Part shown: positions 1 to 29,529 of the stretch, piece after piece
Position numbering within the stretch: the stretch's first letter is position 1
How the letters are laid out: the number at the start of each line of letters is the position of its first letter
Source: a virus
Strand: one strand, 5' to 3'
Length of the DNA stretch: 30,643 nucleotides
Virus record (IMG/VR): IMGVR_UViG_3300045902_000205
Location: 1 to 30,643 of that record
Program-made: the position numbers and the translations under genes
The notes under the pieces: generated by a model
Databases searched by the model: none
What the model saw: the letters and a program-made list of their open reading frames with translations, nothing else
Told to the model about the DNA's origin: nothing

Positions 1-120
1 AAAATAATATCGGGTGGGACGCTCGATAACACTGATGGAGACACAAGTAAGACTTCTGTAAAGAAGCATAAGTCTGTGAAGTCAGAAGCCCAACCCATCG
101 CCTCTGGCGTGGGTGGGTAG
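1..120 (+). CDS. tnpB: TnpB RNA-guided nuclease, C-terminal end only (window edge)
   Basis: The first 120 bases read in frame 1 as the last 39 codons of a TnpB protein, ending in TAG at 118-120. The stretch matches the end of the complete tnpB at 6368-7561 almost word for word: both carry NTDGDT, KTSVKK and KSVK before the end. At DNA level there are long identical blocks with scattered differences, so the two copies are related but not identical. The RuvC core and zinc finger lie outside the window. The last codons also form the right-end hairpin of the transposon, as in the complete copy. Seen directly: the similarity. Known: TnpB proteins of IS200/IS605 elements are RNA-guided DNA nucleases. 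Whether this copy is whole cannot be told. Confidence 0.85.
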   Translation, partial: KIISGGTLDNTDGDTSKTSVKKHKSVKSEAQPIASGVGG

Positions 121-125
121 TTCAC
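1..125 (+). mobile_element. IS200/IS605-family element, right end (copy 1, partial)
   Basis: The right part of an IS200/IS605-type element enters from outside the window. The terminal hairpin has arms at 94-102 (CCCA, unpaired T, CGCC) and 106-113 (GGCGTGGG) with loop TCT. It is followed by GGGTAGTTCAC, which ends at 125. The same GGGTAGTTCAC closes the right end of the complete copy (reverse complement of 6363-6373). Beyond 125 the two copies have nothing in common, which fixes the boundary to within a few bases. The element lies against the 5' end of a homing endonuclease gene. Confidence 0.8.
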
Positions 126-6362: not shown

Positions 6363-6393
6363 GTGAACTACCCATTTGCTAAAGACAAATGGG
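6363..6393 (-). repeat. Right-end hairpin of IS copy 2
   Basis: Arms 6371-6378 (CCCATTTG) and 6386-6393 (CAAATGGG) pair perfectly around loop CTAAAGA. The hairpin is inside the last codons of tnpB, whose TAG stop is at 6368-6370. By analogy with the family it is recognised by TnpA and forms the end of the guide RNA scaffold. Confidence 0.85.
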
Positions 6394-7561
6394 CTTCGGG
6401 TTTCACAGACTTGCGCTTCTTTACAGAAGTCTTATTTGTGTCTCCATCAGTGTTATTGCCAGTTCCTGACGATATTATTTTTAATCCTTCTTTGAAAATA
6501 TTCTTTGCGGCATTAAGGTCACGGTCTAAAACGTGTCCATTCTTGCAAGTCCATTCTCTTATTGAAAGATTTAAGTCTTGATTTATCCAACCACACTCAC
6601 AACAGGTTTTACTTGAAGGATAGAAGCGGTTGATTTTCACAATTTGTTTGTCATTCCAATCAGCTTTGTATTCAAGCAACCTTACAAAAGTCCCCCAACT
6701 TGCATCAGAAATATGTTTAGCAAGTTTATGGTTTTTAACCATTCCTTTTACATTCAAATCTTCAAGTGCAATTACATCATAGTCCGACACTAATTGGTGA
6801 GATACTTTGTGCAAGTTATCCATTCGTAAATTGGTTATCTTCTCGTAAATTTTAGCGACTTTGAGTTTTTGTTTTTCAAACCCATTACTACCTTTTTGTT
6901 TACGAGATAAGTGTTGCTGTGCTTTCTTTAATTGTTTTGCATATTTTTTTGTATATCTATTGTTCTTAAATTTTTTGTTGTCCGAAGTAATTACAAAGTC
7001 CTTCAAACCTAAATCTATCCCAACTTGTTTGTTGGTTTTAGGTAACTCTCGAATCTCTTGTTCTGTAAAAATCGAAACATAGTATTTACCAGTTGGTGTT
7101 TTGGTAATTACCATTTTACCAACCTTCCCTTTAACTTCTCTATGTAGTTTAACTTTTATACCATCTTTAAATTTTGGTATATTGATTTCACCATCTTCTA
7201 TTGTACCAAATTGCGGTATTGTAAAAGTGTTTTTGTGTTTGCGAGATTTAAACTTTGGGAATTGTGCATTACCCCTAAAAAAGTTTAAAAAAGCTGTGTC
7301 TAAAGAACGTAATGCAAATTGCAATGTTTGACTATTAACATCTTTCAACCACTTTGTATCTTCTTCTTTTTTAAGTTTTGTTAGTTTAGCAGCTTGTTTA
7401 TAATAGTTGTCAGACTTTTTATTTGCTTGGTATTGTTCTTTACGTTCATTTAAGAAATAATTATACACCCAACGAGAATGTCCAAAGTGCTGATTTAAAA
7501 GCACTTCTTGTTCTTTTGTAGGGAATAAACGAAATTTATATGTCTTGTTAATCATTTTCAT
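6368..7561 (-). CDS. tnpB: TnpB, RNA-guided transposon nuclease
   Basis: The product has 397 residues, a normal TnpB length. The N-terminus MINKTYKFRLFPTKEQ is characteristic; ATG at 7555 (second Met-Ile) is an equally good start. The RuvC-like catalytic residues are all present: D183 in VGIDLGLKDF, E267 in ALEDLNV, and the aspartates of DRDLNAA at 346-352. The zinc finger is C320/C321-x-C323 followed by C339-KNG-H343, so the second half is C-x3-H instead of the usual CxxC. Known for the family: TnpB uses an omega RNA made from the 3' end of its own gene and the right end to cut DNA that lacks the element, favouring its retention. Here the right-end hairpin overlaps the 3' end of the gene. 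It appears intact. Confidence 0.92.
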   Translation of the reverse strand: MKMINKTYKFRLFPTKEQEVLLNQHFGHSRWVYNYFLNERKEQYQANKKSDNYYKQAAKLTKLKKEEDTKWLKDVNSQTLQFALRSLDTAFLNFFRGNAQFPKFKSRKHKNTFTIPQFGTIEDGEINIPKFKDGIKVKLHREVKGKVGKMVITKTPTGKYYVSIFTEQEIRELPKTNKQVGIDLGLKDFVITSDNKKFKNNRYTKKYAKQLKKAQQHLSRKQKGSNGFEKQKLKVAKIYEKITNLRMDNLHKVSHQLVSDYDVIALEDLNVKGMVKNHKLAKHISDASWGTFVRLLEYKADWNDKQIVKINRFYPSSKTCCECGWINQDLNLSIREWTCKNGHVLDRDLNAAKNIFKEGLKIISSGTGNNTDGDTNKTSVKKRKSVKPEAHLSLANG

Positions 7562-7628
7562 ACTTATTATACATCAAAATTTATGCCAAAATATTGTTTT
7601 ATGTAAAATTGTCATACTATACCGTTCA

Positions 7629-7677
7629 ACATATTGTAAAAGTTTCCGTCTTCGGGTAAAAAACTTTCACAATATGT
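7629..7677 (+). promoter_or_regulatory. Stem-loop covering the tnpA start codon
   Basis: Arms 7629-7645 and 7661-7677 are complementary over 17 positions with one mismatch. The 15-base loop 7646-7660 can itself form CCG/CGG. The right arm contains the tnpA ATG at 7674-7676. In RNA this would hide the start codon and no unpaired ribosome site is left. This fits the known tight translational repression of tnpA in IS200-type elements, but here it is inferred from sequence alone. Confidence 0.7.
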
Positions 7678-8075
7678 CTCACTACATCAGTACAAATCGT
7701 TCAAAACACTATCTTAAATGTCATCTAATTTTAGTTACTAAGTATCGTAGAAATATATTAGTTGGTCAGTTAAATGATGATTTAAAATATATCTTCACAT
7801 CCATAGCAGATAATTCAGATTTTGAAATAGAAGTTATGGAGTCTGATATTAACCATATTCATTTTCTTATTCGTTACATACCAAGATTATCTATTTCACA
7901 ATTAGTTCGTAGATTAAAACAAGAATCTACTCGTCAGTTGTGGTTATTACACTCAAATACACTTCGTCAGTATTATTGGTATCGTAAAATCCTTTGGTCA
8001 GATGGCTTCTTCGTTTGCTCAATAGGTGAGGCTTCACCAGAAACAATACGTCAATATATCCTTTCACAAGGTTAA
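7674..8075 (+). CDS. tnpA: TnpA, Y1 HUH transposase of IS200/IS605 family
   Basis: The product has 133 residues, typical for the family. ATG 7674 gives MSHYISTNRSKHYLKCHLIL; a longer open frame from 7545 lacks similarity and overlaps the tnpB leader. The HUH metal site is H61-I-H63 (NHIHFLIRYIP). The nucleophile is very likely Y128 in ETIRQYILSQ. The LVTKYRR strand and LWSDGFFVCSIGEASPE before the tyrosine helix match the Y1 REP/IS200 group. It catalyses single-strand excision and insertion of the element as a dimer. The start codon is buried in a strong stem-loop, so expression is probably low. No frameshift or stop is seen, so the element may be mobile. Confidence 0.92.
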   Translation: MSHYISTNRSKHYLKCHLILVTKYRRNILVGQLNDDLKYIFTSIADNSDFEIEVMESDINHIHFLIRYIPRLSISQLVRRLKQESTRQLWLLHSNTLRQYYWYRKILWSDGFFVCSIGEASPETIRQYILSQG

Positions 8076-8088
8076 TGGTCGCTTACAT

Positions 8089-8123
8089 CCCACCCACATT
8101 CTGATGGGTGGGTTTTACGCTCC
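8089..8123. repeat. Left-end hairpin of IS copy 2
   Basis: Arms 8089-8096 (CCCACCCA) and 8105-8112 (TGGGTGGG) pair perfectly over 8 bp around an 8-base loop. They are followed by TTTTACGCTCC. The same flank (TTTCACGCTCC) follows the hairpin of the solo relic at 10122-10166, which marks this as the conserved left end. Confidence 0.82.
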
Positions 8124-8210
8124 GTCTAATAAAATTTAAAAAACCCCATCCCCCTATAAATAGATGAGCCAATATGCAATATAATTTCGCAAACGAAGTG
8201 TTAATTGGTT

Positions 8211-9494: not shown

Positions 9495-10125
9495 CATCCA
9501 TTTTAGGCTCTATCAAAGGCACAAGGAGTTTAACGCAGTACTTAGGAATTTCATCCAGTACGTTCAAAAAAACAAAGATGAAAACTCTATAATCTTCATA
9601 GGGGGTGACGTAGTTCACTCTAAAACAGAGATGTCGCCGGAACTGTTTCAGGTAGTGTCAAGGTTCTTAAAGGATTGTGCAGATACCTGTACAACAGTAT
9701 TAACTCCCGGCAACCACGATGGAAATCTATCCAATGCAAACAGACTTGATGCCCTTACACCAGTTGTAGATGCAATGAACCATCCAAACCTGCACTATTG
9801 GAAAGACAGTGGGGTTTACAGGCTCATGGGCACTACTTTCTCTTTGTTCGGCATATTTGATAGCCCTGAAAAATGGGTATATGCTAAGGACATCGAAGAT
9901 GACTTTAAAATAGCGCTGCACCACGGGCCTTTAATCGGTTCAAGGACAGACTTGATAACAATACAGCATGGGATACGCCCCTCTATTTTTGATGGATTTG
10001 ACGTGGTTATGTTAGGAGACATACATTACTCGCAAACTGTTCAAGAATATGAATACAATGAAATAAGTGTAAAAAATTCAGAGGTACAAAAATATCTTGA
10101 TGAAGGTTGGGAGGTTGTTAAGTAA
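9457..10125 (+). CDS. 47: gp47/SbcD-like nuclease subunit, metallophosphatase core only
   Basis: The product has 222 residues where T4 gp47 has about 340. All phosphoesterase motifs are present in order: D13-I-H15, GGD51, GNHD at 85-88, HHG at 155-157, and GDIH with D188/H190. The C-terminal capping domain is missing. It is found downstream, fused to gp46. The last codons (EVQKYLDEGWEVVK) run up to the TAA at 10123-10125, and that stop belongs to a transposon relic, so the gene was truncated by the insertion. Known: gp47 with gp46 resects DNA ends in recombination-dependent replication. Inferred: the separate core chain may still assemble with the cap-gp46 chain. The start ATG 9457 lies inside the upstream frame. 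Confidence 0.85.
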   Translation: MASKISKIFHLSDIHFRLYQRHKEFNAVLRNFIQYVQKNKDENSIIFIGGDVVHSKTEMSPELFQVVSRFLKDCADTCTTVLTPGNHDGNLSNANRLDALTPVVDAMNHPNLHYWKDSGVYRLMGTTFSLFGIFDSPEKWVYAKDIEDDFKIALHHGPLIGSRTDLITIQHGIRPSIFDGFDVVMLGDIHYSQTVQEYEYNEISVKNSEVQKYLDEGWEVVK

Positions 10126-10166
10126 ACTACCCACCCACACTTCGTGATGTGTGGGTTTCACGCTCC
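10122..10166. mobile_element. 45-bp solo relic of the IS200/IS605 element
   Basis: The left side (GTAAACTACCCA) matches the right end of the IS copies (GTGAACTACCCA at 6363). The right side (TTTCACGCTCC at 10156-10166) matches the left end of copy 2. Between them is a single 7-bp hairpin, arms 10134-10140 and 10149-10155 (CCCACAC/GTGTGGG). Both element ends are thus fused around one hairpin with no genes. It is either an internal-deletion product or a minimal non-autonomous element. It supplies the stop codon that truncates gp47. Confidence 0.8.
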
Positions 10167-10175
10167 AATATTATG

Positions 10176-10211
10176 AAAAACCCGCCCTACAATTAAGCAG
10201 AGCGGGCTTTT
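10176..10211. terminator. Bidirectional rho-independent terminator
   Basis: AAAAACCCGC (10176-10185) pairs with GCGGGCTTTT (10202-10211) at nine of ten positions around a 16-base loop. There is a T run on the + side and an A run (T run on the - strand) on the other. It sits between the truncated gp47 gene and the convergent reverse-strand gene and would stop transcription from both. Confidence 0.85.
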
Positions 10212-19952: not shown

Positions 19953-22645
19953 AAGCCCCAGATAATTTAAGACAGATAGTAAAAGACGAGTTCTTAAAGT
20001 GCGGTACCGATCCAGTTTATTTCTTTAAGAAATACGCAAAGATTTCGCACCCTAAGAAAGGAAAGATATTATTTGACTTGTATCCTTTCCAAGAGGAAAC
20101 TTTATACCAACTTCAACGGAACAGGTATAACATAATTTTAAAGTCTCGACAGATGGGCATAAGCACATTAACAGCAGGGTATGCCCTACATGAGATGATG
20201 TTCAATGACGACTATAAAATATTGGTAATAGCAACCACACAAGAAGTAGCCAAGAGCCTTGTAGAAAAGGTTCAGTTGATGTTCGAGCTGCTTCCAAACT
20301 TTCTAAAGCAAGGAGGCTTGTCAATAGTAAACAAAAACAAGTTAAGTCTTGTGTTCAGCAACGGAAGTTCAATCAAAGCAGTATCAAGTTCACCTGATGC
20401 TGCACGTTCAGCGTCCTTGTCACTGTTAATTTGTGATGAGTTCGCGTTCGTAGAGTCTTCTGAAGCTATATGGACATCAGCGCAGATGACATTAGCAACA
20501 GGCGGTAAATGTATAATACTATCAACACCGAACGGAACAGGAAACACGTTCCACGACCTTTGGGTAAAAGCAGAAGAAGGTGTTGCTGATGGTATAGAAG
20601 CATTTAATCCAATAAAACTACCTTGGTATTTGCACCCAGAACGAGATCAGAAGTGGAGAGACGGTTATGACCATTTGTTAGGAAAGAGACAAGCAGCTCA
20701 GGAATGTTTTGATGGAGATACCAGAGTGCTGACTGAGACTGGATATAAGTGTATAAAGGACATAAGAATAGGCGAATTAGTGTTTACTCACAAAGGCAGA
20801 CTAAGACCTGTGGTAAGGGTTATGAGTCATATATCTAATAATTGTGTAGAATTATATAGTTCAAATAACAGGTTAAAAAAATCCTTTGTTACTAAAAATC
20901 ACCCGTTTTTAACTGATAATGGGTGGGTAAATGTTGGAGATTTTAATAATGAACATGTGTTGTGTAATTTGCCTGATTTTGAAATTAAAAGTTCTACGAG
21001 TATTTTGGATTTATACGATGTGTTAAGTCCTGTATTCTTTAAGAAAAAACTAACAGAAGATGCTAATAGATTTTACATAAATGACAGAAGGCATAAAAAA
21101 GAATATTTTAGATACATCCCAATAGATTGGGAATCCGGTCATTTGATTGGGCTATATTTGGCAAAAGGTTCTAAAACACGAACAAGATTGATAATTAGTT
21201 GCAATGCAGAACATGAACTAAACAAGTGGAAATTAGACCTGTTTGAAAAACTAAATAAACTATTTGGACAATCGCCGATTAACGATAGGGTTACGGGAAA
21301 AAACACAGGACAAATATCTATATCAAGCACAATAATATCAGGTTTTATTGACTTTTTTGTAGAAGGTACTTCATCCTCAACAAAGAAATTATCTAAAAAC
21401 ACATATATTTATGGAAATTATAATTTTTTTAAAGGGATATTAGAAGGGTATTTGCAAGGGGATGGGTGTCTGTTAGAGAAGTATAAAAAAACATCAACAA
21501 CAGTGTCCTTAGAACTATTGTACGATTTAAAGTCAATTTCAGATTTATTGAATATAAAAAACACATCAATAAGAAGGGTAAAGACAGCAGGTGTTGAAAC
21601 AATAGAAGGCAGGATAGTAAATATAAGAGAATCTTACTATTTATCTTATAAAAGGAATAAAAATATTCCCTATAGTTTTAAAAATTCATATTCTTGTGAT
21701 GTTAAAAACAGACTAATTATTAGTGAAGGTGTTGTAGAAGATGTCAAGGTATATAATTTAGAAGTATATGAGGATCACACTTATATAACAGAACATGGTG
21801 TTGTTCATAATTGTGATTGCGATTTTTTAACCTCTGGTCACACTGTAATAGAAGCGGACATACTTGCAGAGTATGACGCAAAGACCATAGAACCTTTAGA
21901 AAAAAGAGGGGTAGAAGGAGACCTTTGGATTTGGAAGTACCCAGACCCTATAAAAGACTACATTGTTGTACTTGACCCCGCTCGTGGAGATGGAGAAGAT
22001 AACTCAGGTATGCAGGTTATAGATGTAGAAACTTGTGAGCAAGTAGCAGAGTATAGAGGTAAGATTGATACGCAGTCTTTTGGAAGAATGGGGGTTGCGG
22101 TTGCTACTGAGTATGGTAATGCTTTGCTTGTTATAGACAACAAAAACGTTGGTTGGAGCACAGTTCAAGTAGCCTTAGATTTAGGGTATAAAAACCTGTA
22201 CTATTCTTACAAAAATGACCCTTATCTTGATGAAAATATACATTTAAGAAAGAACTATGATCTAAAGAACAAAGAGGATATGATACCCGGATTAACCACA
22301 ACTACAAGGTTGAGGCCAGTTTTTGTATCAAAATTAGAGATGTATTTTCGGGAAAGAACCCCTATAATATACTCAAAGAGATTTATGAACGAGTTGCGAG
22401 TTTTCGTATGGCATGATGGAAAACCGCAGGCACAGAGAGGAAAAACCGACGACTTGGTTATGTGCTGGGCTATGGGAATGTACATAAGAGACACTGCCCT
22501 AAGAATGAGGCAAATGGGCATAGAACTTATTAAAAATGCAATAAGAAATACACACAAATCAGTTTACAAACCACAACCTATTGGAGCAGACAAATGGCAA
22601 ATGGATGTGAGAGGACAAAAGGAGAATCTTAAATGGCTACTATAA
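19949..22645 (+). CDS. terL: Terminase large subunit (gp17-like) containing an intein
   Basis: The product has about 898 residues including a 369-residue intein; the spliced enzyme is about 529. The N-terminus before the first standard start (TTG 20078) is clearly coding (PDNLRQIVKDEF, DPVYFFKKYAKI), so the start must lie upstream. The frame opens after TGA 19943 and the best candidate is ATA 19949 in an ATAG overlap, with GAGG eight bases ahead. The ATPase Walker A is SRQMGIST (S66-T73) and Walker B is LLICDE (D163/E164). The nuclease domain has VLDPARGDGEDNS, LLVIDNKN and KTDDLVMCW. It packages DNA into proheads through the portal, which is encoded next. The gene overlaps the portal gene by 13 bp. 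Confidence 0.88.
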   Translation: MEAPDNLRQIVKDEFLKCGTDPVYFFKKYAKISHPKKGKILFDLYPFQEETLYQLQRNRYNIILKSRQMGISTLTAGYALHEMMFNDDYKILVIATTQEVAKSLVEKVQLMFELLPNFLKQGGLSIVNKNKLSLVFSNGSSIKAVSSSPDAARSASLSLLICDEFAFVESSEAIWTSAQMTLATGGKCIILSTPNGTGNTFHDLWVKAEEGVADGIEAFNPIKLPWYLHPERDQKWRDGYDHLLGKRQAAQECFDGDTRVLTETGYKCIKDIRIGELVFTHKGRLRPVVRVMSHISNNCVELYSSNNRLKKSFVTKNHPFLTDNGWVNVGDFNNEHVLCNLPDFEIKSSTSILDLYDVLSPVFFKKKLTEDANRFYINDRRHKKEYFRYIPIDWESGHLIGLYLAKGSKTRTRLIISCNAEHELNKWKLDLFEKLNKLFGQSPINDRVTGKNTGQISISSTIISGFIDFFVEGTSSSTKKLSKNTYIYGNYNFFKGILEGYLQGDGCLLEKYKKTSTTVSLELLYDLKSISDLLNIKNTSIRRVKTAGVETIEGRIVNIRESYYLSYKRNKNIPYSFKNSYSCDVKNRLIISEGVVEDVKVYNLEVYEDHTYITEHGVVHNCDCDFLTSGHTVIEADILAEYDAKTIEPLEKRGVEGDLWIWKYPDPIKDYIVVLDPARGDGEDNSGMQVIDVETCEQVAEYRGKIDTQSFGRMGVAVATEYGNALLVIDNKNVGWSTVQVALDLGYKNLYYSYKNDPYLDENIHLRKNYDLKNKEDMIPGLTTTTRLRPVFVSKLEMYFRERTPIIYSKRFMNELRVFVWHDGKPQAQRGKTDDLVMCWAMGMYIRDTALRMRQMGIELIKNAIRNTHKSVYKPQPIGADKWQMDVRGQKENLKWLL
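20705..21811 (+). mobile_element. Intein in terminase, LAGLIDADG endonuclease probably dead
   Basis: The intein begins CFDGDTRVLTETGYKCI (block A, Cys1), has KNHPFLTDNGW (block B) and ends TYITEHGVVHN (blocks F/G) before a +1 Cys. Joined exteins read QAAQE-CDCDFLTSG. It is 369 residues. The first endonuclease motif is LIGLYLAKG, where Lys replaces the catalytic acid. The second, LEGYLQGDG, keeps its Asp. Splicing residues Cys1, block B His, terminal His-Asn and +1 Cys are all present, so splicing is expected while homing is doubtful. Confidence 0.9.
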
Positions 22646-25587
22646 GAGACAGGTTAAAAACCATGTTCACCAAGAACGTGCTTATCAAGCATCTTCCCGG
22701 AGGGAGGCTTAAAGCGTACGATGTTAGCAAGAGTCAATCAGTCGGATCGCCGACAAAATACTCAAACAGGTCTAAATGGCGCAGCGGGAGAATGGGCGGC
22801 TATGGCCCCGGATTCGGTGGAAGTACCTCCAACGAAGAAATAGAGTCGCTTAGAAAGATGTTTTACATTGATTATGAACTTATGGATAGCGATGCTATTA
22901 TATCCTCTGCCCTTGATTTAATAGCAGAAGAAAGCACTACAGTAGATGTAGACGGTCAGTTGTTAAAAATAAGGACAGATAACGAGAAGATAAAGAAGAT
23001 ATTACATAATTTATTTTATGATGTGCTGAACATTGAGTTTAACTTGTGGTCTTGGATAAGGACAATGTGTAAATATGGAGACCACTTTTTATATCTTCAA
23101 ATTGACGAAGAGTTTGGCATAACTAATGTAATGCCTATACACCCTAGCCTAATCAGGAGGGAGGAAGGGCTTGACAAAGAAAACCCTGATATAGTTCAAT
23201 TTGTATATGACGGTGATGGAGGTTATTGGACTACACAAGAAAAATTTGAGGCATTTGAAATAGCCCATTTTAGGTTGCTAACCGATACAAACTACTTGCC
23301 ATACGGTCGCTGCCTGCCCAAAGATTCATATATTGATATGGAATTTGGAGTAAAAACAATTGATAACGTGGTAGTTGGAGACAAAGTTTGGACTTATAAC
23401 ATTAATACAGATAAATTAGAATTAAGTTATGTTGTAAATAAAGTTAGTAGTGGAGTAAAGAATTTAATAGAAATATGCACACAGAATAATTCAATTAAAT
23501 GTTCACAAGAACATCCAATACTGTGTTTTGACAAGGGATCGGAAAGTTTAAAATATAAGCCAGCAAATAAAATAGTTGTTGGGGATTTATTAGTTTTAAA
23601 TTCTAATAAAAATACATTATCCAGAGATGTTTTTATTGATAAAAATTTAGTGGATGGTGTCAATAAAAATGAATGTAAAAATAACATAGATAATGTTCCA
23701 GATATTGTAAATACTGAATTTGTTAGATTGTTTGGGTTTTTGCTTGGAGGCGGTCGGTTAACTATGGACAGAGTTGCTTTTGCATGTGGCGTTTATCCAG
23801 AAATTAACAACTATTATAAAAATTTAATTGAAAAGTTTAGTGGTAAAACTGCATATTTTAGCAAGTCAAAACATAACGGACTTCCAAATGCTTGTATTGT
23901 GTCAAGTAAGATGTTAACAACTGTTTTAAGCAACATGGAACTTAAAGGAGGTGCTAAAACAAAACGGGTTCCAAGTTGGGTATTTGAACTTTCACCAGAA
24001 TTAAAAGAATCTTTTATAAGGGGATTTATAGATGCAGACGGCTCTACTAATGTAGATAAATATGGGGTAAAGAGATATAAAATAGAATTGGTTAATAGAG
24101 AATTATGTCAAGATTTAAAGATATTAGCATCAACTATAAACATTAAAACATCCAATATAAAACATAGACACCGATTATCACGAAAAAGTAGAGAAAAATT
24201 TTTGCCAGAATCTGATTGCTACTATTTTTATATATATTTAGAGGGCAGTAAAATAAGACAAGAAAAAAAATACAGTAGAGTTACTTCTGATAATATAATC
24301 TTAAAACCAGTTAAGAGTATAAAACAATTAGAATCACAAGAAACTTTTGATATTCAAGTTGAATCAGACAATTCAAATTTCATTGCAAATGGAATAATAG
24401 TTCACAACTCCTTCATAGAGCCTGCTAAAAAGTCATACAAGATGCTTTCCTTACTTGAAGATGCTGTGCTTCTTCACAGAATAATGCGTGCGCCGGAGAG
24501 GCGTATAGTAAAAATTGATATAGGAAACATCGCACCAGAAGAGGTAGATGCTCACGTAGAGCAGATTGTGTCTGAGATGAAGAAAACTCCATACATAGAC
24601 CCTCAAACAGGCGAGTACAATTTAAGGTATAACCTTGAGAATGCGATAGAAGATTGGTTCCTTCCAGTAAGGGGCGGACAGAGCGGAAACTCGGTAGAGA
24701 CGTTGCCCGGCCTACAAAACCAGAACGCTATGGACGACGTGGAGTACGTCAGAAAAAAAATGATGGCTGCACTAAAGATACCAAAAGAATTTCTCGGATA
24801 CGGAGAAGATAGTGGAGGAAGTTCAAAGGCTGGGTTGGCATCTCTTGATGTAAGGTTCGCAAGGACGGTAGAAAGGGTACAGAAGATATTCGTTTCAGAA
24901 TTATATAAAATAGCAATAATTCACTTGTATACTCAAGGGTTTAGAGAGGATGATTTGCTTGGATTTGAAATATACTTGACTAATCCAAGTCTTGTGTTCG
25001 AGCGTCAAAAAACAGACGTTATGACAGCAAAGGTTGACTTGGCAAAGTCTATTAAAGAAGATAACGTGTTTTCTCAAAAATACATATATGAGAATATATT
25101 CGGTATGAGCGAAGACGAGTGGAAAGCAGATATAGACAGAAGGATAGAAGATGCAAAACTGACCTTTAGACTAAAGCAAATCACAGAAGAGGGCAATGAT
25201 CCACAGGTATCTGGGAAATCTTTTGGAACTCCTTGGGATATTGCATCCCTACAAGTAAGTAGTAGGATGTTTCCCGTATCACAGGAAGACATTGAGAAAT
25301 TATATACCCCGGACGGCAGAGAGGAAAATGAAGGAAAGCCGCCACAGTATAAGGGAAACTTTGAAACTAAAAGAGATCAGGATTTTGGAAGAGACCCCGT
25401 AGGTAGGAGGGAAAACGATAAGATAGAAATGCCGAGTGTTGCCAAAGAATCTTACGAAAAATTAATAAAAAGGTTGGAAAAAAGATACAATAAAGATAAT
25501 AAAAAGTCCCTTTTAGAAATAGATAAGAATATTGACTCGGTCAATATGCTGAATGAAGATAATATCCTCGATGATTTTCCTAATTAA
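22633..25587 (+). CDS. 20: Portal protein (gp20-like) containing an intein
   Basis: The product has 984 residues, 618 after removal of the intein; T4 gp20 is 524. Portal features include the glycine-rich N-terminus, DSDAIISSALDLIAEESTT near residue 85, the joined SFIEPAKKSYKMLSLLEDA with HRIMRAPERR just after the intein, KIPKEFLGYGEDSGGSSKA, and a long acidic C-terminal tail. Twelve portals form the DNA entry ring and terminase docking site. ATG 22633 lies within the terminase 3' end, after GGAG. The order terminase-portal-protease matches T4-like head modules, with gp18 and gp19 absent from between. Confidence 0.9.
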   Translation: MATIRDRLKTMFTKNVLIKHLPGGRLKAYDVSKSQSVGSPTKYSNRSKWRSGRMGGYGPGFGGSTSNEEIESLRKMFYIDYELMDSDAIISSALDLIAEESTTVDVDGQLLKIRTDNEKIKKILHNLFYDVLNIEFNLWSWIRTMCKYGDHFLYLQIDEEFGITNVMPIHPSLIRREEGLDKENPDIVQFVYDGDGGYWTTQEKFEAFEIAHFRLLTDTNYLPYGRCLPKDSYIDMEFGVKTIDNVVVGDKVWTYNINTDKLELSYVVNKVSSGVKNLIEICTQNNSIKCSQEHPILCFDKGSESLKYKPANKIVVGDLLVLNSNKNTLSRDVFIDKNLVDGVNKNECKNNIDNVPDIVNTEFVRLFGFLLGGGRLTMDRVAFACGVYPEINNYYKNLIEKFSGKTAYFSKSKHNGLPNACIVSSKMLTTVLSNMELKGGAKTKRVPSWVFELSPELKESFIRGFIDADGSTNVDKYGVKRYKIELVNRELCQDLKILASTINIKTSNIKHRHRLSRKSREKFLPESDCYYFYIYLEGSKIRQEKKYSRVTSDNIILKPVKSIKQLESQETFDIQVESDNSNFIANGIIVHNSFIEPAKKSYKMLSLLEDAVLLHRIMRAPERRIVKIDIGNIAPEEVDAHVEQIVSEMKKTPYIDPQTGEYNLRYNLENAIEDWFLPVRGGQSGNSVETLPGLQNQNAMDDVEYVRKKMMAALKIPKEFLGYGEDSGGSSKAGLASLDVRFARTVERVQKIFVSELYKIAIIHLYTQGFREDDLLGFEIYLTNPSLVFERQKTDVMTAKVDLAKSIKEDNVFSQKYIYENIFGMSEDEWKADIDRRIEDAKLTFRLKQITEEGNDPQVSGKSFGTPWDIASLQVSSRMFPVSQEDIEKLYTPDGREENEGKPPQYKGNFETKRDQDFGRDPVGRRENDKIEMPSVAKESYEKLIKRLEKRYNKDNKKSLLEIDKNIDSVNMLNEDNILDDFPN
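23311..24408 (+). mobile_element. Intein in portal gene, LAGLIDADG endonuclease probably dead
   Basis: The intein is 366 residues from CLPKDSYIDMEFGVKTI to FIANGIIVHN, with +1 Ser. Joined exteins read LPYGR-SFIEPAKK. Block B is CSQEHPILCF. The first endonuclease motif reads LFGFLLGGG, where the usual catalytic Asp is Gly. The second, IRGFIDADG, is intact. Splice residues (Cys1, His-Asn, Ser+1) are present. The AT content is higher than in the surrounding portal exteins, consistent with a separate origin. Confidence 0.9.
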
Positions 25588-27771: not shown

Positions 27772-29529
27772 ATGAAGCAATTACTAATAGAACATACCGC
27801 TTTAATAGGAGTAGAGAAACCCGCCCTCATAGAGTCAATCCAAAAGAATGACGGAAGGTTAATTATTAGGAACGTATTGTTGCAAAGGGCTGATTCTCCC
27901 AACAGGAATAAAAGGGTATATCCTAAACATATACTTGAGCGAGAGATAAGGTTATACGAGAATAAGATAAAAGAAAGAAGGGCGTTCGGAGAACTCGACC
28001 ATCCCGAATGCGAATTTTACTTAGCAGAAATTCTCACAGAATCAGGCTGGAAACTACTTAAAGATGTTGAAGTTGGAGAAAAGATACCAACACTAAACAC
28101 TAAGACAGGCGCATTAGAAATGCAGCCAGTTAAACGGGTTGTAAATGAACCTTATAAAGGTAAAATGATTCACATAAAGGGTCGTAATATTGATATGGTA
28201 GTTACACCAAACCATAGGTTCAATCTATTAGATAGGAATAATGAATTTGTAGAAAAGACTGCCCAAGAAATTTATGATATTAGTAAAATAAATAAAAATT
28301 CACATTTAAGAATACCTATAACCGCTGAAAAATGGATAGGTGATTTTTCTGATAAATACTACATAATTCCGGGTGTAGATATAGATATTACAAACAAGAA
28401 CTGGATTAGTAAATATTTAAGTCCGCTAACTCTTGATTCTAAGAGTTTTTTTGGATTTTTAGGATTCTATCTTGCAGAGGGTCATATAACTGATATAGAT
28501 AGTACAAAAGGCTACGGTATCTTTATAAGTCAGAATAAGGGGGAGAAAGCAGATAAGTTCTTAAACTTAATAAGTGGACTTTCAAGCGAATTAGAGTGGA
28601 CAATAACAGAGAGAAAAAATGGAAAAGGTTTAATATTTAAGTGTAGTGATGCGAGGTTGTGGACATATCTATCAAAACTAGGAGATAAGTACACTAAACA
28701 TATTCCAAAAGATGTTAAAAACGCATCATCAGAATTACTTCAAGAATTTGTTGATTGGTATTTACTTGGTGATGAGACTAAGCCAGTTTATAAGGGATAC
28801 GAGAGAAAATCTATATTTTCAGTATCAAAGAAGATGATAGAAGACTTTAATGAGATTTTGTTGAAGTTAGGGATAACTGGTGTAATAAAAGAGCAGACAC
28901 CTAAAGATAGGTTAATAGAAGGAAGATTGATAGAAGCAAAAAATTCAAAAACTCTATATAGGCTATGTTTTAAATCATCAAAAGCCATTCATTTGGATTT
29001 CAGATTCATTTGTATAGAAGAAGTTGACTATGATAATACTGTACATTGTGTAACAGTTGATAATGGGTCTTTTTATACTAGATATAATGGATTGCCTCAC
29101 TGGACTGGAAATTCAAACATAGTAAATTTAAAGAATGTATGTCACGCAATAGTTGACGTAAATTGGAAAGGCAATGAAGTTTACGGGGATGTAGAGATAC
29201 TGCCAACGCCATCGGGAAATATTGTAAGAAACATCTTACTTGCGGGGTTTAGAGTTGGGCAAAGTTCTCGTGGCCTTGGATCAGTAGAGCCTTTAAGAGA
29301 GGGGGGGGACTCAGAAGTGGTAGAGGTTCAGGACGACTTTGAATTGGTTACGCTATCTGACTGTGTTTCAGACGAATCAACGATAGGAGCTAATATGGTC
29401 GCTCCCGGCCTACACGAATCTTATTCTCCTAAAATAAGCACAAGATACCGAAACGCTAACTTAATAATGCAGGAGATATTGTGCGAACTTGGACAACAGT
29501 GTTGTTTAGATAAACCCGGTAAAATATGA
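27772..29529 (+). CDS. 21: Prohead protease (gp21-like) containing an intein
   Basis: The product has 585 residues, 217 after intein removal, which matches T4 gp21 (about 212). The catalytic His is H77 in FGELDHP. After the intein come SNIVNLKNVCHAIVDVNWKG and the catalytic Ser in VGQSSRGLGS. These are the marks of the S78/gp21 herpes-like assembly protease, which cleaves scaffold and capsid proteins during head maturation. The intein lies two residues after the catalytic His, so the protease is inactive until splicing. ATG 27772 follows a short AT-rich leader (TATATATAAAGG). Confidence 0.9.
   Translation: MKQLLIEHTALIGVEKPALIESIQKNDGRLIIRNVLLQRADSPNRNKRVYPKHILEREIRLYENKIKERRAFGELDHPECEFYLAEILTESGWKLLKDVEVGEKIPTLNTKTGALEMQPVKRVVNEPYKGKMIHIKGRNIDMVVTPNHRFNLLDRNNEFVEKTAQEIYDISKINKNSHLRIPITAEKWIGDFSDKYYIIPGVDIDITNKNWISKYLSPLTLDSKSFFGFLGFYLAEGHITDIDSTKGYGIFISQNKGEKADKFLNLISGLSSELEWTITERKNGKGLIFKCSDARLWTYLSKLGDKYTKHIPKDVKNASSELLQEFVDWYLLGDETKPVYKGYERKSIFSVSKKMIEDFNEILLKLGITGVIKEQTPKDRLIEGRLIEAKNSKTLYRLCFKSSKAIHLDFRFICIEEVDYDNTVHCVTVDNGSFYTRYNGLPHWTGNSNIVNLKNVCHAIVDVNWKGNEVYGDVEILPTPSGNIVRNILLAGFRVGQSSRGLGSVEPLREGGDSEVVEVQDDFELVTLSDCVSDESTIGANMVAPGLHESYSPKISTRYRNANLIMQEILCELGQQCCLDKPGKI
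28009..29112 (+). mobile_element. Intein in prohead protease, endonuclease acids intact
   Basis: The intein is 368 residues from CEFYLAEILTESGWKLL to YNGLPHWTGN with +1 Ser. Joined exteins read ELDHPE-SNIVNLK. Block B is VVTPNHRFNLL. Endonuclease motif 1 (FLGFYLAEG) has its Glu and motif 2 (VDWYLLGDE) has its Asp, so both catalytic acids are present. The C-terminus is His-Trp-Thr-Gly-Asn instead of the usual His-Asn, so the penultimate His is missing. Splicing probably uses another residue for assistance. Confidence 0.88.

Follow-up and report, generated by a model that had tools for sequence, protein, structure and literature searches.

An ends-only IS200/IS605-family remnant supplies the stop codon of a split phage gp47 gene

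The sequence GTAAACTACCCACCCACACTTCGTGATGTGTGGGTTTCACGCTCC occupies positions 10122-10166 of the window (the whole stretch of DNA analysed here, 30,643 nt, IMGVR_UViG_3300045902_000205) and is part of a 51-bp remnant in which both termini of an IS200/IS605-family element are fused around a single hairpin. Degenerate IS605 elements of this form are known, and the 51-mer is one carried by a phage; it provides the stop codon of the N-terminal part of a split gp47 gene. Its most probable history is the insertion of a TnpB-only element of the TTCAT-targeting lineage at the stop codon of that gene part, followed by deletion of the element core, which left a 51-bp terminal-only PATE.

Anatomy and boundaries of the 51-bp unit

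The initial annotation had described the 45 bases of 10122-10166 as the whole relic. The sequence is present, and its reading as two element ends fused around one hairpin, with no genes between them, was borne out by the match to full-length IS605 ends, but the right boundary given by full-length kin and their empty site lies at 10172 (Table 1). On the tnpB-sense (minus) strand the left end is at 10172 and the right end at 10122. Comparison with full-length elements from viral contigs identified 10122-10129 (GTAAACTA) as the right-end terminus and 10154-10166 (GGTTTCACGCTCC on the plus strand) as the left end; the left part of the unit resembles the tnpB-side end of IS605 elements and the right part the tnpA-side end. 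The hairpin has an 8-bp stem and an 8-nt loop, with a DNA fold of -8.2 kcal/mol (z -2.3). The unit codes for no genes and is too short for any transposase, and no second copy of the 45-base sequence was found in the window at up to 3 mismatches, nor in 100 shuffles. As had been claimed, the TAA that ends the upstream ORF belongs to the element, although to its second to fourth bases and not to the very first ones, and the ORF ended in this way is only the N-terminal part of gp47.

Table 1. Coordinates of the 51-bp unit, the gp47 locus and the other IS605-type copies in the window
Feature	Position	Strand	Basis or remark
Copy 1: third element truncated at the window edge, with its tnpB end and right end	1-125		
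Copy 2: full IS605-type element	6363-8128		tnpB 6368-7561 (minus), tnpA 7677-8075 (plus); guide TAAA, target TTTAT
Split gp47, N-terminal part: SbcD-like metallophosphoesterase of 222 aa	9457-10125	plus	Pfam PF00149, phrog_100
Ends-only (single-hairpin) IS200/IS605-family remnant, 51 bp	10122-10172	minus	full-length kin and kin's empty site
Right-end cleavage site TTTAC (GTAAA on plus strand)	10122-10126	minus	as in TnpB-only lineage (L086, L088, L093, L094) and L092
TAA stop codon of the upstream ORF	10123-10125	plus	element bases 2-4
Single subterminal hairpin	10133-10156	minus	stem 10133-10140 / 10149-10156
Left-end guide TGAA, which pairs with TTCA in the target	10157-10160	minus	guide-target covariation
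Target TTCAT (ATGAA on plus strand), retained in left-end flank	10173-10177	minus	contains the predicted original TGA stop
Passenger ORF between the gp47 halves, 111 aa	10258-10593	minus	phrog_30542, unknown function
gp47 C-terminal part fused to gp46 (SbcC-like), 856 aa	10792-13362	plus	phrog_77, AAA_23

The boundaries were read from TnpB-only kin for which both states of one site are available. The empty site, in contigs L104 and L105, reads CGAAGTTTATATGAAGATAG, while the occupied site in L086, L088 and L093 consists of CGAAGTTTAT, then GTAAAC...GCTCCAATACT, and then ATGAAGATAG. Comparison of the occupied site with the empty junction CGAAGTTTAT/ATGAAGATAG (slash, junction) demonstrates that the kin insertion is exact, lies 3' of TTCAT on the minus strand and involves zero duplication and zero loss. 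This fixes the boundaries of the kin to the base and hence those of the window's element at 10122-10172. Full elements that share the window's guide (TTTCAC on the plus strand) continue with GCTCC, then AATACT, AATATT, ATTATT or GTTAA, and then ATGAA. The unit thus has what defines a PATE, namely a near-terminal palindrome related to IS605-type ends without terminal inverted repeats. Neither of the marks of a classical MITE, terminal inverted repeats and a target duplication, is present; note that the absence of a duplication was seen in the full-length kin (L104 and L105 against L086), the window's own empty site being a prediction.

Lineage and guide-target pairing

Two lineages of elements could be told apart by their ends. 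Copy 2 and its kin have the right end GTGAAC, the left guide TAAA and the target TTTAT. The sister lineage, found in other phage contigs, has the right end GTAAAC, the left guide TGAA and the target TTCAT, and carries tnpB without tnpA (IS1341-type); in L086, L087, L088, L091, L093 and L094, tnpB is present, tnpA is absent and the right end is ...GGGTAGTTTAC. The 51-mer has GTAAAC, TGAA and TTCAT, and both of its termini are of the same make as those of full TTCAT-lineage elements. Judged by these motifs, it belongs to the TTCAT lineage and not to that of copy 2. Its descent from copy 2 is ruled out by the guide, the right-end bases and the target, all of which are those of another, TnpB-only lineage. 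Compared with IS1341-type TnpB-only elements, the window's copy has lost its core. In one contig (L092:2357-3178), TTCAT-lineage ends flank a LAGLIDADG-type endonuclease (PF00961, E 1e-5) where the kin have tnpB.

As predicted by the IS608 guide model (PMC5934647), guide and target change together. We searched for left ends with a variable guide base other than T, leaving the target base free. Left ends with a C guide were followed by ATGAA at every genuine site (6 independent sites); since all of them come from a single lineage, they amount to one evolutionary change in guide and target, observed at six insertion sites. Left ends with a T guide had ATAAA at 62 of 63 sites and ATCAA at the remaining one (L243), and the other exception was L089, with a G guide and ATGAA. 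Moreover, the right-end guides change in step, GAAG being found with TTCAC and AAAG with TTTAC. Reversed-pattern controls for the element-end searches gave 0 matches.

These elements are like IS608 and ISDra2, which insert 3' of a short site on one of the strands that pairs with a guide 5' of the left hairpin (PMC5934647) and in which changing the guide redirects the target (PMC5934647). The differences are that here the TTTAT/TAAA and TTCAT/TGAA pairs are natural lineages, and that the 51-mer is without a right guide. Natural lineages whose guide and target differ together thus display the outcome that IS608 guide engineering yields by design.

Origin of the unit at the split gp47 gene

The gp47 gene was already split when the unit arrived. 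A relative whose sequence is 89% identical to the window's N-terminal part carries one intact 1054-aa SbcD-SbcC ORF (L004:3998-7162), while in the window the break falls after about residue 200 of the protein, and the first piece has gained a tail ending in YLDEGWEVVK. A second relative, L006 (4001-4607), with 77% identity where the two sequences match, shares the truncated N-terminal part and its tail but has no unit, the gp47 tail running straight into the terminator. By this comparison the split came before the 51-bp unit and is independent of it. The L006 tail continues into AQKNLSHS, and because the sequence after the shared tail differs from that of the window, the gap between the gp47 halves may be a cargo slot. 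In the window this gap holds a terminator-like hairpin and the minus-strand passenger ORF. Just before its gp47 part, which matches from residue 80 in a relative, L006 contains an intein-like sequence (L006:3700-4025). In the window, the terminase, the portal and a third structural gene (20078-22645, 22633-25587 and 27772-29529) each have an apparent intein-like insertion; these were read from translations, and only the terminase was scanned against families.

We propose that a TTCAT-targeting, TnpB-only IS200/IS605 element entered the minus strand 3' of TTCAT, at a point at which ATGAA would have overlapped the TGA stop of the already split N-terminal ORF. The predicted site before insertion is ...GTTAA/ATGAA..., that is ...GTTGTTAA/ATGAAAAACCC...; it was not observed as such, the target region of L006 being too diverged to read TTCAT, and the original stop was presumably TGA. 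The incoming right end, reading G-TAA on the coding strand, would have turned AAA TGA into AAG TAA and kept the protein sequence. Subsequently, a deletion between the end palindromes, which are nearly identical, would have removed the core, made up of one palindrome and probably tnpB, and fused both termini around one hairpin. The deletion most likely occurred in place, rather than in an element that then transposed as a ready-made 51-mer. No phage was found carrying a full element at the same gp47 site, and the deletion step was not seen at this locus; searches of annotated phages with the 63-bp region, and with the gp47 region at the DNA level, gave no match.

Units of this kind recur. A search pattern that placed a right end and a left end on either side of a single hairpin matched 30 stretches of viral contigs; after two GC-rich chance matches and one ordinary left end were set aside and contigs sharing a site were merged, roughly 17-20 sites remained. 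Bacterial and archaeal assemblies gave 8 matches, seven real-looking units and one chance match. The initial annotation would have been refuted had the unit turned up nowhere else, and this is not so: besides that of the window there are about 20 of the same make, each 45-53 bp long with one hairpin, in contigs from phages, bacteria and archaea. The left-end hairpin is the one retained in L014, L019, L032 and L033, whereas in L030, L031 and L010 it is the right-end hairpin, joined to a left-end tail. These different fusion points point to repeated, separate core deletions, the simplest route to such units being deletion from one end palindrome to the other. In one Clostridia assembly (G006, L108-L116), nine TTTAT-lineage left ends were found, two of them ends-only with different right-end remnants. 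At one unit seen in L022, L025, L028, L035 and L036, the contigs differ only in the length of a C run in the stem, which suggests slippage.

The same path has been described in Haloquadratum walsbyi, in which the 52-bp forms of terminal-only PATEs (HqIRS46, ISHwa23) are attributed, in the passages that treat them, to repeat-mediated deletion of the core (PMC3119063). Those elements lie in an archaeal chromosome and the 51-mer in a phage, and an analysis of guide, target and stop codon, given here, does not figure in those passages on the PATEs (PMC3119063). The unit also resembles the free-standing IS605 stem loops of Borrelia plasmids, end hairpins without a transposase of which some lie at the 3' ends of genes (PMC2775950). 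However, the Borrelia stem loops are dispersed without adjacent flanking sequence (PMC2775950), whereas the 51-mer fuses both termini in one unit.

As the main alternative, the 51-mer would be a miniature element in its own right, mobilised in its present form by a TnpA supplied in trans by the host, a co-infecting phage or copy 2. It keeps both cleavage sites, the hairpin and a matching left guide; judging from the sequences, one G-T wobble would let this guide pair with the right cleavage site. Near-identical units occur at different sites (L013 and L020, L014 and L032, L033 and L077), and six strain-specific 52-bp copies in Haloquadratum hint that short units can move, a possibility that, in the part of that report dealing with them, its authors considered (PMC3119063). 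Against this, the right-end guide is absent by construction from every ends-only unit, and for this reason the 51-mer is presumably inert now. In addition, the guide that remains in T-guide units mismatches the right cleavage site, the fusion points vary between units, a Y1 transposase is present in only 2 of 17 phage records with a unit (many of these records are fragments), most of the records hold just one left-end motif, and a C-guide unit is known at one site only. We therefore consider movement of the finished unit unlikely. Copy 2 may have acted in trans, because TnpA recognises hairpins and it is the element's own DNA that determines the target, yet nothing supports this, and of the two readings first offered, deletion scar or mobile miniature, the former is the better one.

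In surveys of about 595 genomes of two phyla, the left-end motif was found in only two, and beyond G006 the host genomes gave no copy-number test of mobility. At the one multiply sampled unit site searched for alleles, all five contigs carry the unit, and neither an empty nor a full allele was seen.

A REP-type palindrome spread by a domesticated RAYT transposase is very improbable. REP-system RAYTs are related to Y1 transposases, and the unit is a short single hairpin flanked by tetranucleotides like GTAG and GGAG. However, its copy number is low (one in the window, few per record) where high-copy REPs with a RAYT gene would be looked for, its termini and target are those of canonical IS605/IS1341 elements, it lies 3' of a guide-matched pentanucleotide, and the Y1 gene of the window is an IS200-like TnpA beside tnpB. 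Finally, a non-transposon origin, as an ordinary hairpin or terminator after gp47 with a chance likeness to IS ends, would suit a single weak hairpin between a stop codon and a terminator-like hairpin, but it can be dismissed almost entirely: both ends agree with those of full elements, target and spacing included, the reversed-pattern controls were empty, L006 is without the unit, and GTAAAC...GCTCCAATATT/ATGAA is matched in independent full-length elements, which refutes it.

Exchange of stop codons at insertion

When the flanks of the unit are joined, they read GTT AAA TGA where the window has GTT AAG TAA, and the protein ends in EGWEVVK in both cases. The 51-bp insertion is thus predicted to be silent, one stop codon replacing another. 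The same pattern is seen at many other insertions of this group of elements: on the coding strand the targets read A-TGA-A or A-TAA-A and the right ends G-TAA-A or G-TGA-A, so that an element landing on a stop codon swaps stops, and the last codon changes only in its third base, from A to G. The ends of these elements therefore make insertions at stop codons silent, and in 7 of the 8 listed cases with a long ORF and a known lineage the final amino acid stays the same.

We then measured the open frame upstream of each independent right end in all three frames, with a threshold of at least 100 codons; the ORFs were not gene-called, the viral contigs are fragmentary, and sites with similar flanks were counted as one. 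Among the first 48 sites, the stop frame was open over this length 8 times and the other two frames together once. For all 166 sites, a part of which come from lineages of unknown target (the left-end target could not be located for most other GTGAAC elements), the counts were 20 and 7. Sites added after the idea was formed gave 12 against 5 (binomial p = 0.0019 for one third), and ordinary ATAAA sites in the same contigs, used as a control, gave 200 against 3427 (Fisher p about 1e-19 for all sites).

This excess does not prove a selected design, since purifying selection alone would remove insertions within genes and leave those at stops. That target and right terminus have been matched by selection, keeping the upstream protein (and, in overlaps, the downstream ATG) intact, is a tentative idea, which we regard as less probable than its absence. 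In the open literature searched, a partial set, no published report of stop exchange was found. TnpB-bearing elements are very common; if the idea is true, a built-in exchange of stops would explain how they can sit at gene ends and inside phage operons at no cost. It would also be a second route to harmlessness for IS605 elements, beside that of the IStrons (IS605 plus a group I intron; PMC4227781), whose insertion is likewise harmless to the host gene. IStrons splice out at the RNA level (PMC4227781), whereas the 51-mer exchanges one stop codon for another, and such exchange may help this group of transposons to sit in genomes without harm. For annotators, the consequence is that the stop codons of real genes can be transposon bases, as in the genes for a full-length PriA (L078), an ABC ATPase (L079) and an M1 peptidase (L081) that end on such a unit.

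Finally, two full TTCAT-lineage elements, L086 and L094, sit in ATGA stop/start overlaps, the overlap being seen in the empty site itself for L086 and obtained by joining the flanks for L094. The ORFs that start at the retained ATG have 132 and 345 codons, respectively. An ATG that opens a long ORF follows immediately 3' of these two elements and of L087, and the start of the next gene is kept.
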